NCBI GenBank assembly: GCA_030613545.1
Contig: JAUWLU010000007.1
Coordinates: forward strand, 1 to 38,074
Direction: 5' to 3'
DNA: 38,074 bases
Source: Desulfuromonadales bacterium
GTDB taxonomy: Bacteria > Desulfobacterota > Desulfuromonadia > Desulfuromonadales > Syntrophotaleaceae
Below the pieces are notes generated by a model, which did no database searches, was not told the origin of the DNA, and worked only from the letters and a program-made list of their open reading frames with translations. This document shows, one piece after another, positions 1-33,491 of the stretch (positions are counted from its first letter, which is position 1; each line of letters opens with the position of its first letter). A program made the position numbers and the translations under genes.

Positions 1-869
1 CTATCCAGCACCAGAACGCCAGGACAGCCGCCATGGAGCAGTTTCAGACGTAAATCTTCACGGCAATCGAGCAGGCCCACGGTCGGGCAGTTGCGCTCCA
101 TGAGGCAGTGAACCGGCGTCGACAGCCGCGCCCGCCAGGCGGCGGTAGCGGTGTCGAAACTGGTACTGAGCACGGGTACCTGCCGCTGGCGGGCCGTGGC
201 CAGCAGCTCCGGAGCGATCGTCCCGCCACCGGTGACCACCAGCACCCGCACCCCCAGATTCACTGCGTGGGCCTGAATTTCCTGCCGATCTCCGGTGATC
301 ACCAGCAACCGGCGCGGGTCGCAGTGAGTCAGCCGTTCGGCAAAGGATTCAAAGGCCATGGCGCCGACATAGAGCTCGAGCTCCTCCAGTTCCTTTTCAT
401 CGACGGCGTGCAATGCGCTGGCCTGCAAACACTCTCGCAAGGCGGCCAGCGAGGTCAACACCCGCCGGTTGGAGCCTTCATCCGTCGGCAGCAGAAAACC
501 TTCGGCAGCCCGCTTGAGCATCATCAGGCCCTGCGGCCGCTGCTCATCGTCGGTCACCGGCAGCAGCCGAACATCGTGGTGGTGGAGCTGTTCCAGCACA
601 ATTGCCAGAGGCGTCTCGCCGCCGATGGTAACCGCTGGCGAACGAACCAGATCCCGCACCCGGGGGGAGACATCGGTGAGCAAGGGCGGCACAGCCACGG
701 CGAGACGATTCAGCACAAATTCGGTCTGCCGATTGAGGTTGCCGGCTCGAGCCGCCGTCACGCCGGCCAGGCCCTGCAGCTGTCGCAGGCGGGCATAGCC
801 AATGGCACTGCAAATGGAGTCGGTGTCCGGATGCTTATGGCCGACCACATAAACCACGGGTTCGCTCAT
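1..869 (-). CDS. ppaC: Manganese-dependent inorganic pyrophosphatase (family II, CBS-DRTGG type), 3' end outside window
   Basis: Hydrolyses pyrophosphate to phosphate in the cytoplasm. About 289 residues are visible and the frame is still open at the window edge, so the C-terminal part is missing. The N-terminus carries the DHH-family metal site GHKHPDTDSICSAIGYA, with likely Mn ligands His11, Asp15 and Asp17. A CBS-like segment follows from about residue 69, then a DRTGG-like region around 180-285 with repeated beta strands such as RVLVVTGGGT. This insertion between the two halves of the catalytic domain is typical of nucleotide-regulated family II enzymes. The ATG lies 2 bases after the stop of the DUF3108 gene, so it is probably third in an operon with the antiporter. 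Identification is from motif recognition. Confidence 0.9.
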   Translation of the reverse strand, partial: MSEPVVYVVGHKHPDTDSICSAIGYARLRQLQGLAGVTAARAGNLNRQTEFVLNRLAVAVPPLLTDVSPRVRDLVRSPAVTIGGETPLAIVLEQLHHHDVRLLPVTDDEQRPQGLMMLKRAAEGFLLPTDEGSNRRVLTSLAALRECLQASALHAVDEKELEELELYVGAMAFESFAERLTHCDPRRLLVITGDRQEIQAHAVNLGVRVLVVTGGGTIAPELLATARQRQVPVLSTSFDTATAAWRARLSTPVHCLMERNCPTVGLLDCREDLRLKLLHGGCPGVLVLD

Positions 870-29236: not shown

Positions 29237-29824
29237 TCAGCGACTTATCACTCTGAAGAATTTAACCAGGTAGTCGATCCCCGACCAGAGAGTCAGGACT
29301 AGCGCGAAATAGAAATAGAGCAGACCGAAGCGGTGCATGGAAACATGCAGCCATTCGTAGCGCAAACCGAAGAACCAATAATAGTCGTAATGCAGCAATA
29401 GCCCGATAATCGCCACCATCTGCAGAATGGTTTTGTACTTACCGAGGTTGCTTGCGGCGATAACAACTCCCTCAGAAGAGGCAATGGACCGCAGGCCGGT
29501 AATGATAATCTCGCGAGCCAAAAGAACAAAGACCGCCCAGGCCGGTACCCGCCCGTGGGGGATTAGCATGATCAGGGCGGCCATAACAATCAACTTGTCG
29601 GCCAGGGGATCGAGAAATTTCCCCAAAACGGTGACAACTTGCCACTTTCTAGCTAGGTAACCGTCAAGCCAGTCGGTAATGGCTCCAAGAGAAAAGATCA
29701 TCGCAGCCCAAAAGGAACTCGCCCTTCCCTCCACAAGCAGCAGAACCACCAGCAGCGGTATGCAGGCAATGCGCCCAAGGGTGAGCAGGTTTGGCAGGTT
29801 CAACAGGCCCGAACGACAATCCAT
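29237..29824 (-). CDS. pgsA: CDP-diacylglycerol-glycerol-3-phosphate 3-phosphatidyltransferase
   Basis: Inner-membrane enzyme that makes phosphatidylglycerol phosphate, the committed step to acidic phospholipids. The start is ATG 29824 (MDCRSGLLNLPNLLTLGR), matching the family N-terminus; the frame extends into the transglycosylase gene upstream without similarity. It has 195 residues. The CDP-alcohol phosphotransferase motif DG-x2-AR-x8-G-x3-D-x3-D is complete, from DWLDGYLARK to LGKFLDPLADK (about 43-69). Several TM helices follow. It lies 16 bases after the lytic transglycosylase gene. Confidence 0.95.
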   Translation of the reverse strand: MDCRSGLLNLPNLLTLGRIACIPLLVVLLLVEGRASSFWAAMIFSLGAITDWLDGYLARKWQVVTVLGKFLDPLADKLIVMAALIMLIPHGRVPAWAVFVLLAREIIITGLRSIASSEGVVIAASNLGKYKTILQMVAIIGLLLHYDYYWFFGLRYEWLHVSMHRFGLLYFYFALVLTLWSGIDYLVKFFRVISR

Positions 29825-29840
29825 GGCAAAAGCTTTCTGG

Positions 29841-30413
29841 TTAACGATAAAATTGCAGATACTTCTTGACCTGCGCGATATAATTGCGGGTCTCGGCAAA
29901 GGGCGGCACGCCGCCATAGCGGCGCACGTTGCCGGGACCCGCGTTGTAGGCCGCTAGCGCCAACTCCAGGTTACCGCCAAATTGATCGAGCATCAGCCGT
30001 AGATAACGACTGCCGCCACGGATATTTTCAGCCGCATTAAAGGGGTCGCTCACCTGCATCTCCCGCGCGGTAGAAGGAATAAGCTGCATAATACCCTGCG
30101 CCCCCCGGGCAGAGACCGCCTTGGGATCATAATTGCTCTCGACCTTGATAACCGCTTTAATCAAGGCTTCGTCCAGGTCGAAGGCCTTGGCCGAGCGGGC
30201 TATCTGATCGCTGAGGGTCCCGCTGCCGGCATCCGGCTTGGGGGTCTCTTTTAAATAGAAGCGAAACTTGTTACCCGTCGGGGTATTGGTAAAATGGACC
30301 ACCCCGTTGGCGTCGACATATTTATAAATGTCGCACCAACCTGCAACGGGACAGAAACATAACATCGTTGCAGAAAAGATGCTGCCAATTAAAACACACT
30401 GAACTGTTTTCAT
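29841..30413 (-). CDS. Soluble-type lytic transglycosylase with DUF4124 domain
   Basis: Cleaves peptidoglycan glycan strands to anhydro-muramyl products in the periplasm. 190 residues: signal peptide (about 1-26, ending VAGWC-D, possibly lipidated at an internal Cys), DUF4124 segment DIYKYVDANGVVHFTNTPTG (28-47), then an SLT domain (about 70-188). The likely catalytic residue is Glu92 in KVESNYDP, followed by the typical GAQGIMQLIPSTA, NIRGGSRYLRLML and ALAAYNAGPGNVRRYGG. ATG 30413 follows a recognisable promoter. It is probably cotranscribed with pgsA. Confidence 0.93.
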   Translation of the reverse strand: MKTVQCVLIGSIFSATMLCFCPVAGWCDIYKYVDANGVVHFTNTPTGNKFRFYLKETPKPDAGSGTLSDQIARSAKAFDLDEALIKAVIKVESNYDPKAVSARGAQGIMQLIPSTAREMQVSDPFNAAENIRGGSRYLRLMLDQFGGNLELALAAYNAGPGNVRRYGGVPPFAETRNYIAQVKKYLQFYR

Positions 30414-30494: not shown

Positions 30495-30523
30495 TTGACA
30501 ATACTGGACCGGACCCTGATAAT
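30495..30523 (+). promoter_or_regulatory. Promoter of nadB
   Basis: TTGACA (30495-30500), 17-base spacer, GATAAT (30518-30523), near consensus. The predicted start near 30530 gives a leader of about 110 bases before the TTG start of nadB. Confidence 0.8.
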
Positions 30524-30546
30524 AAATTTTTTAAAGCGAATGGTAT

Positions 30547-30635
30547 GAGGCCATAGACGTTTATGTCGGTGGCTTTTTTGCGGCCTCGATTCAATCTATA
30601 TCGCCTTTTTGCGCTTTTTCTTTAATCGGTGAGGC
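30547..30635 (+). promoter_or_regulatory. Candidate attenuator in the nadB leader
   Basis: Between the promoter and nadB lies an intrinsic-terminator-like hairpin: GCCATAGAC (30550-30558) against GTCGGTGGC (30565-30573) with one mismatch and one wobble, then six T (30574-30579). Overlapping it, GAGGCC (30547-30552) can instead pair with GGCCTC (30582-30587). GCCTC can also pair with GAGGC (30631-30635), which is the nadB ribosome site. These exclusive pairings suggest a switch; no known class is recognised. Confidence 0.5.
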
Positions 30636-30642
30636 TTTTCTT

Positions 30643-32241
30643 TTGAAGATTACGTCAGACTTTTTGGTCATCGGCAGTGGCATCGCCGGCCTTTCCTACG
30701 CCTTGAAGGTCGCCGAGCGGGGCACCGTTGCCCTGATAACCAAACGGGACATGTCGGAAACCGCCACTAACCTGGCCCAGGGCGGCATCGCGTCGGTCAT
30801 TTCCACGGAAGACTCCTTTGCGTCTCATTTCAAAGACACCATGGTGGCCGGGGTCAACCTATGCCACGAGAACGTCGTGCAACTGGTTGTGGAAAGCGGA
30901 CCCAAGGCCATTCACGATCTAATCAACTGGGGCGTCAAGTTCACCAAAAAAGACGACGACACCTATGACCTGACCCGCGAGGGAGGGCACAGCAAACGAC
31001 GCATTCTGCACGCCAAGGATATTACCGGCCGAGAGATCGAACGGGCTCTGGTGACTGCGGCCCGCTGTCATCCCAATATCACCATTTACGAGCATCATAT
31101 CGCCGTCGATCTGATCACCGACGCCAAAACCAGCGGGCGCCGGGAATGCCCGAGCCATTGCCTCGGCGCCTATGTTCTCGACATCGAGGGCCGAGAGGTC
31201 ATTCCTTTTGGTGCCAGGGTCACCGTGCTCGCCACCGGAGGCGCCGGCAAAGTCTTTCTCTACACCACCAACCCCGATGTGGCGACCGGAGACGGTGTGG
31301 CCATGGCCTACCGGGCCGGAGCGACCATTGCCGATATGGAATTCATGCAATTCCATCCCACCACCCTCTATCATCCCAATGCCAAGTCATTCCTGATCTC
31401 CGAATCGGTGCGCGGAGAAGGAGCTATCCTGCGCCGCCGCGACGGGACCGCCTTTATGGAGGCCTACCATCCGCTGAAGGATCTGGCACCGCGGGATGTG
31501 GTGGCTCGAGCCATCGACAACGAATTGAAAGTGCATGGTGACGACAGCGTTTTTCTCGATATCACCCATCGCGATGCCGACTATATTCGCAACCGCTTCC
31601 CGAATATCCACGAAACCTGTCTCAAATTCGATATCGACATGACCCGCGACCCGATCCCCGTGGTACCGGCCGCCCACTACCTGTGTGGCGGGGTTAAGGT
31701 CGACACATGGGGAGAGTCGGACCTGCAGAACCTGTTTGCCATCGGCGAAGTCGCCTTTACCGGTCTGCACGGCAGCAATCGACTGGCCAGCAACAGCCTC
31801 CTTGAAGGGGTGGTCTTTGCGGACCGCGTGGCGCAACGCTCCCTGGAACGTCTGGACGAAGCGGTCGAGACCTACCCCACTGTGCCCTCGTGGGACTACG
31901 GCCAGGCCACCGACAGTGATGAAGAGGTGGTCGTGGCCCACAACTGGGATGAAATTCGCCGCTGTATGTGGAACTACGTCGGCATCGTCCGCTCCGACCG
32001 CCGCCTGGCTCGAGCATTGCGCCGCATGCAGATGATTCAACAGGAAATCGCAGAATATTATTGGGACTTTTATCCGACTTCCGACCTCATTGAATTACGC
32101 AACATCACCACCGTTGCCAAACTGATCGTTCGCTGCGCCATACAGCGCAAGGAAAGTCGCGGCCTGCATTTCAATATCGATCATCCTGAGACCGACGACC
32201 TCCACTGGAAGCGGGATACAACCATTCGCATCACCTTTTAA
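30643..32241 (+). CDS. nadB: L-aspartate oxidase NadB
   Basis: FAD enzyme that oxidises L-aspartate to iminoaspartate, the first step of de novo NAD synthesis; NadA would take the product. 532 residues. The start is a TTG (30643) preceded by GGTGAGG. FAD-binding N-terminus FLVIGSGIAGLSYALKVAERG (about 7-27, given here in part), then TNLAQGGIASV, HSKRRILHAKDITGREIE and the FRD-like active-site region MEFMQFHPTTLYHP. SNRLASNSLLEGVVFADR and the helical C-terminal domain with MWNYVGIVRSDRRL are typical of NadB rather than succinate dehydrogenase. It shares a transcript with chorismate mutase, 23 bases downstream. The long leader may control it. Confidence 0.95.
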   Translation: MKITSDFLVIGSGIAGLSYALKVAERGTVALITKRDMSETATNLAQGGIASVISTEDSFASHFKDTMVAGVNLCHENVVQLVVESGPKAIHDLINWGVKFTKKDDDTYDLTREGGHSKRRILHAKDITGREIERALVTAARCHPNITIYEHHIAVDLITDAKTSGRRECPSHCLGAYVLDIEGREVIPFGARVTVLATGGAGKVFLYTTNPDVATGDGVAMAYRAGATIADMEFMQFHPTTLYHPNAKSFLISESVRGEGAILRRRDGTAFMEAYHPLKDLAPRDVVARAIDNELKVHGDDSVFLDITHRDADYIRNRFPNIHETCLKFDIDMTRDPIPVVPAAHYLCGGVKVDTWGESDLQNLFAIGEVAFTGLHGSNRLASNSLLEGVVFADRVAQRSLERLDEAVETYPTVPSWDYGQATDSDEEVVVAHNWDEIRRCMWNYVGIVRSDRRLARALRRMQMIQQEIAEYYWDFYPTSDLIELRNITTVAKLIVRCAIQRKESRGLHFNIDHPETDDLHWKRDTTIRITF

Positions 32242-32765: not shown

Positions 32766-32802
32766 AAAAAAGGAGGCTTGCCGAACGGCAGCCTCCTTTT
32801 TT
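32766..32802. terminator. Bidirectional terminator between the nadB operon and pyrE
   Basis: Stem AAAAAAGGAGGC-TGCC with one bulged T, loop GAAC, then GGCA-GCCTCCTTTTTT. T-runs on both strands serve the two convergent units. Confidence 0.93.
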
Positions 32803-32822: not shown

Positions 32823-33386
32823 TCAGCGATCGCTGCCGACCACCTCGCTTTTGGTGAAAATGGCCCGCAAGGCCAAGCCCTGGGCCTCGACCGCTTCCCG
32901 ACCTCCTTCTTCGCGATCGACCAGCGAGATGATGCCCACCACCTCCAGGCCCTCTTCCCGAGCCCGGTCAACGGCTTTGAGCGCCGAACCGCCGGTGGTC
33001 AATACGTCTTCAACGATCACCACCCGCGCGCCGGGGACGAGGTTCTTCCGTCCTTCGAGCCACTGACCGGTGCCGTGTCCCTTGGGCTCCTTGCGAATAA
33101 TAAAGGCAGGAATGGGATCGCCGGCCAACGAACTGGTCATGGAAAGGGCGGTGGCGATGGGATCGGCGCCCATGGTCAGCCCCCCTACCCCATCGATGGG
33201 ACCGGGAAAATGTTTCAATTCGTCGAAAAAGGCCTTGCCCACCAGCACCGCACCCCGAGGGTGCAAAGTGGTCTGCTTGCCGTCAAAATAAAAGGTGCTT
33301 TTGCGCCCCGAAGCCAGGGTGACTTCCCGCTCCTCATAGGACACCTGCCGCACGATTTGTTTCAGTTCATCACGGTCGTTTGCCAA
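32823..33386 (-). CDS. pyrE: Orotate phosphoribosyltransferase PyrE
   Basis: Transfers the PRPP phosphoribosyl group to orotate to give OMP in pyrimidine synthesis. The start chosen is TTG 33386 (MANDRDELKQIVRQVSYEER) with a strong GGAGG 7 bases upstream, giving 187 residues, the usual length. An ATG at 33422 in the same frame would add 12 residues unlike the family and has a poorly spaced ribosome site. Motifs: TLASGRKSTFYFDGKQTTLH (about 23-42), GLTMGADPIATA, FIIRKEPKGHG loop and the PRPP-binding VVIVEDVLTTGGSALKA. Single gene, convergent with the nadB unit. Confidence 0.93.
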   Translation of the reverse strand: MANDRDELKQIVRQVSYEEREVTLASGRKSTFYFDGKQTTLHPRGAVLVGKAFFDELKHFPGPIDGVGGLTMGADPIATALSMTSSLAGDPIPAFIIRKEPKGHGTGQWLEGRKNLVPGARVVIVEDVLTTGGSALKAVDRAREEGLEVVGIISLVDREEGGREAVEAQGLALRAIFTKSEVVGSDR

Positions 33387-33491
33387 ACCCTTCCCTCCAC
33401 TCGCTAAAATGTAACCTGCCATGCCCCTCGCATTTACCAGGAGGCCATCACTGTTTAGTCATTGGGCCGTTGTCGGCCCGGCGGTATTCCT

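Follow-up and report, generated by a model that had tools for sequence, protein, structure and literature searches.

Premature terminators in 5' leaders are common, with 15,930 predicted in the survey of Naville and Gautheret (2010; PMC2965389), the main text of which does not name nad genes. The NAD+-I (nadA motif) riboswitch precedes nadA (PMC7708056), and a PreQ1-like element, matched to the Rfam PreQ1 family, has been predicted before Shewanella nadB (PMC2659441). Here we consider a hairpin followed by six T residues in the leader of nadB in the window, by which we mean the whole stretch of 38,074 nucleotides that was analyzed (Table 1). The product of nadB supplies a precursor for the synthesis of NAD. 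Like the surveyed 5' terminators (PMC2965389), this element consists of a hairpin and a U-run between a promoter and a coding region, but it differs from them in that no antiterminator or sensor was identified. Like the NAD+-I riboswitch, it is located in the leader of a gene for de novo NAD synthesis; however, it shows no Rfam match at E = 10 and no tandem aptamer, and has only about 20 nt before the hairpin. The nadA genes with the NAD+-I riboswitch are, moreover, those of other phyla. For Shewanella, a structured RNA had already been listed computationally in the 5' UTR of nadB (PMC2659441), but that element comes from other bacteria and no PreQ1 match was found here. None of these three systems is the same as the nadB hairpin, which is real, conserved and of an ordinary kind; its interpretation as a switch is unsupported, and it is most likely a simple, local brake on transcription and not a new riboswitch.

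Table 1. Features of the nadB leader and neighboring genes, in window coordinates
Feature	Position	Strand	Remarks
pgsA, upstream neighbor	29237-29917	-	
Lytic transglycosylase gene, upstream neighbor	29841-30413	-	
nadB promoter, TTGACA-17-GATAAT	30495-30523	+	11/12 consensus matches
Short 5' leader before the hairpin	30530-30548	+	start near 30530 predicted from the promoter
Terminator-like hairpin, GGCCAU-A-GAC / GUC-G-GUGGC	30549-30573	+	loop variable, 6-7 bases
T6 run directly after the hairpin	30574-30579	+	6/6 columns invariant in four genomes
GGCCTC, proposed 3' strand of the antiterminator and anti-ribosome-site segment	30582-30587	+	
Shine-Dalgarno region of nadB, GGTGAGGC	30628-30635	+	direct sequence reading; GAGGC invariant in the genus
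nadB, L-aspartate oxidase, TTG start	30643-32241	+	TIGR00551 and NF006567 above curated cut-offs

Promoter and gene context of nadB

For nadB we used 58 genomes of the order together with named GTDB contigs, and comparison of the upstream regions across the order revealed that the conserved part is the promoter. A TTGAC(A/T)-17..19-NATAAT element precedes nadB in 65 distinct leaders, nearly all of them from Desulfuromonadales, at a distance from the gene that varies from 34 to 176 bases. The strong promoter that the first-pass annotation had placed upstream of the hairpin is borne out as a near-consensus one, and a scan downstream of the hairpin found no second promoter. It had also been remarked that no gene on the same strand precedes the hairpin, and this holds: no plus-strand gene ends nearby, and both upstream neighbors are encoded on the minus strand. 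Between promoter and hairpin, only 11 of the 26 columns across 30524-30548 are invariant in the genus alignment.

Several other features of this neighborhood are recorded here in their own right. The nadB promoter stands back to back with a divergent minus-strand promoter of the lytic transglycosylase gene (TTGAAA-17-TATATT, 30471-30443), and the TATTTCAAC block, which bears the divergent -35 box, recurs before nadB in many Desulfuromonadales. The start codon of nadB, at the same position throughout, is TTG both in the genus of the window and in the sister genus; two other genera of the family have GTG, and most of the order has ATG. In two genomes of different families (L053 in G010 and L054 in G042) nadB is matched twice, by overlapping stretches that lie in different frames, which suggests a frameshift or an assembly error. 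Further along the window, a strong bidirectional terminator-like hairpin (32770-32798; -17.5 to -20 kcal/mol, with T-runs on both strands) sits between the chorismate mutase gene and a convergent gene on the opposite strand (32823-33422).

Stability and distribution of the hairpin

The terminator-like hairpin with six T residues is present in the nadB leader, at 30549-30579, as had been noted. Its arms are GGCCATAGAC and GTCGGTGGC, the stem ends at 30573 and the T6 run begins at the next base, which is the sequence arrangement of an intrinsic terminator, with modest stability and one mismatch, A.G, in the stem. The segment 30530-30579 folds with -13.7 kcal/mol (z = -2.6 against shuffles), and the terminator has a predicted equilibrium probability of about 0.8 in the window. 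Furthermore, when the transcript is ended at the U-run the same hairpin forms in the leaders of all four genomes that carry it. It should be noted, however, that on its own the core hairpin of the window reaches a modest -9.7 kcal/mol, which counts against a terminator, and it is the weakest but one of the 12 terminator-like hairpins listed in the window. It was missing from the terminator scan of the window, probably because of the A.G mismatch. The window leader is marginal by comparison with shuffles, 44 of 1000 of which yield an equally good hairpin and T-run, and the stability of the whole leader is not unusual (z = -0.47); the leaders of the three relatives perform better, with equally good elements in 4, 7 and 18 per 1000 shuffles.

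All four congeners with a readable leader (G000, G001, G003 and G004) have the hairpin and T6 at this site, and a pattern search found one such site in each of these genomes and none in the 54 other genomes searched. In a fifth congener (G002) the assembly shows neither nadB nor its divergent neighbor. Among the leaders read, the element is absent before nadB in the sister genera and elsewhere in the order. The nearest sister genus (G007, G009) has an 88% identical NadB and an equally long leader of 113-114 nt, the sequence of which is unrelated in the hairpin part. Given its restriction to one genus, the hairpin is a genus-level gain or a sole remnant, and not a family-wide control element of nadB.

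All four genomes agree in 24 of the 25 alignment columns of the arms and T6, as against 21 of the 50 columns of the flanks and loop (Fisher p = 3e-6). While the arms and U6 stay constant, the loop differs in sequence and its length changes by one base; all 9 pairs of the stem are intact and identical in the four genomes, and within the arms only the mismatched base varies (A.G or A.A). Since the arms and T6 are near-invariant while the loop changes, the hairpin and T6 have probably been kept by selection. The first-pass annotation had named conservation in close relatives as a check that could refute its proposal, and on this point the stem and T6 came through in all four congeners, although it should be borne in mind that the carriers are four closely related genomes only, three of them draft assemblies. 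RNAalifold found no pair with both sides changed; as the stem pairs never vary, covariation neither confirms nor denies the stem.

Candidate roles of the hairpin

We consider it probable, if by no means certain, that the hairpin is a promoter-proximal intrinsic terminator that damps the transcription of nadB without a cis-encoded switch. RNA polymerase would start near 30530 and immediately transcribe the hairpin with its U6, where part of the transcripts would end at a length of about 50 nt; the remaining polymerases would read through into nadB, the transcription of which would thereby be damped. The start site, the actual termination and the effect on nadB are what we infer. The brake would then sit between a strong, order-wide promoter and nadB, and any regulation of the read-through would have to use a trans-acting factor or the elongation machinery, there being no cis antiterminator or aptamer. 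A brake beside a near-consensus promoter has no obvious purpose, and this counts against the terminator reading. If real, it would represent an early terminator that a single lineage acquired behind a promoter that is otherwise conserved, and an NAD synthesis gene tuned without a riboswitch; it would also mean one false candidate fewer among the possible NAD-pathway riboswitches.

The foremost alternative, which we regard as having a small but appreciable chance, is that a trans-acting RNA-binding protein, a small RNA or an elongation factor sets the read-through at the hairpin. In its favor, the arms agree base by base, a stricter conservation than pairing by itself would require; but the four genomes are too close to part sequence constraint from shared descent, the single site per genome argues against a regulon sharing the hairpin, and no candidate factor was identified. 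The narrower proposal, that the conserved hairpin is the target of a trans factor which senses the status of NAD or aspartate and governs termination before nadB in this genus, seems rather doubtful to us. Somewhat less likely than trans regulation in general is that the hairpin does not terminate transcription but stabilizes the nadB mRNA or insulates the 5' end of that mRNA. Its location within about 20 nt of the predicted 5' end is consistent with such a role, as is the consensus fold, in which the U-run pairs with upstream A-rich sequence and lengthens the hairpin; however, U6 is invariant amid changing flanks, and a mere stabilizer does not need it. We think it improbable that the imperfect inverted repeat GGCCATAGAC/GTCGGTGGC, lying just 3' of the promoter and downstream of the start site, is a DNA operator that binds a repressor: the spacer between the arms differs by one base in G001, the genomes have no second copy, and four genomes of the family lack 3H, the effector domain of NiaR, which was the repressor type looked for. 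Furthermore, a loop that varies in length and sequence between fixed arms and U6 is expected of an RNA hairpin and less of a DNA operator with fixed spacing.

Alternative pairings and the ribosome site

A more elaborate proposal, made in the first-pass annotation, is a three-segment attenuator in which an antiterminator, the terminator and sequestration of the ribosome site compete, and which would be switched by a ligand or by leader translation. The complementarities on which it was built are all present in the window: GAGGCC (30547-30552) is complementary to GGCCTC (30582-30587), and GCCTC (30583-30587) to the ribosome site GAGGC (30631-30635). Formation of the antiterminator would indeed exclude the other two pairings, and would also free the ribosome site. 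The terminator and the ribosome-site helix both occur in the predicted fold, which speaks for the proposal; but as they do so in the same minimum-energy fold, they coexist, and the three pairings are therefore not all mutually exclusive as had been claimed.

The antiterminator fares poorly as a switch arm. Its pairs are complete (7/7) in the window only, with 3, 3 and 2 of 7 in the same columns of the three congeners, and its equilibrium probability is about 0.005 versus about 0.8 for the terminator. Its 3' strand (30582-30587) follows the U-run (30574-30579) and, being transcribed later, would come too late to prevent termination there. The antiterminator is thus neither conserved in the relatives nor able to form before the polymerase has made the U-run, as the alternative helix of a cis-antiterminator attenuator would be. 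A possible upstream antiterminator, ATGG (30541-30544) with CCAT (30551-30554), was seen by eye in the window only and was rejected.

The pairing with the ribosome site (CCUC+1 with 1+GAGG) has 5 pairs permitted in the four genomes, one of which is changed on both sides across them (A-U, G-U and G-C). It is, however, matched by 258 of 500 shuffles, with no significant covariation, and the nadB ribosome site is hidden no more than in shuffled leaders; the pairing is not distinguishable from chance. A search of the leader against Rfam, at the gathering cut-off and at E = 10, returned nothing relevant, including no match to the NAD+ riboswitch models with which a comparison had been suggested. 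With a start near 30530, as predicted from the promoter, the RNA ahead of the hairpin would be about 20 nt long, too short to hold either an aptamer or a leader peptide. There is neither a conserved aptamer nor a known riboswitch family in the leader, which is unconserved outside the genus. Given an antiterminator that none of the three readable congeners has intact, that is improbable at equilibrium and whose 3' strand comes too late, a sequestration not above shuffles, no Rfam match and no aptamer room, the attenuator or riboswitch architecture is not supported; the broken antiterminator of the congeners alone appears largely to refute it, and we hold it to be very improbable.

Three further candidates were rejected. 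The short leader ORFs ATGGTATGA and ATGAGGCCATAG of the window, considered for a leader-peptide attenuator, are not conserved, being without an ATG counterpart in G001, G003 and G004. For UTP-sensitive slippage, the T-run concerned (30527-30532, close to the start site) proved to be interrupted or missing in the congeners, and for a sigma-54 reading of TGGC...TTGC, judged by eye, the spacing is 7 versus 10.

Apart from these pairings, a pyrimidine-rich stretch, TATATCGCC.TTTTACGTTTTTTCTTTAATCG, precedes the nadB ribosome site within 30597-30642, a segment in which 39 of 46 columns are kept in the genus and which is partly kept in the hairpin-less sister genus. This stretch is possibly a translation enhancer.
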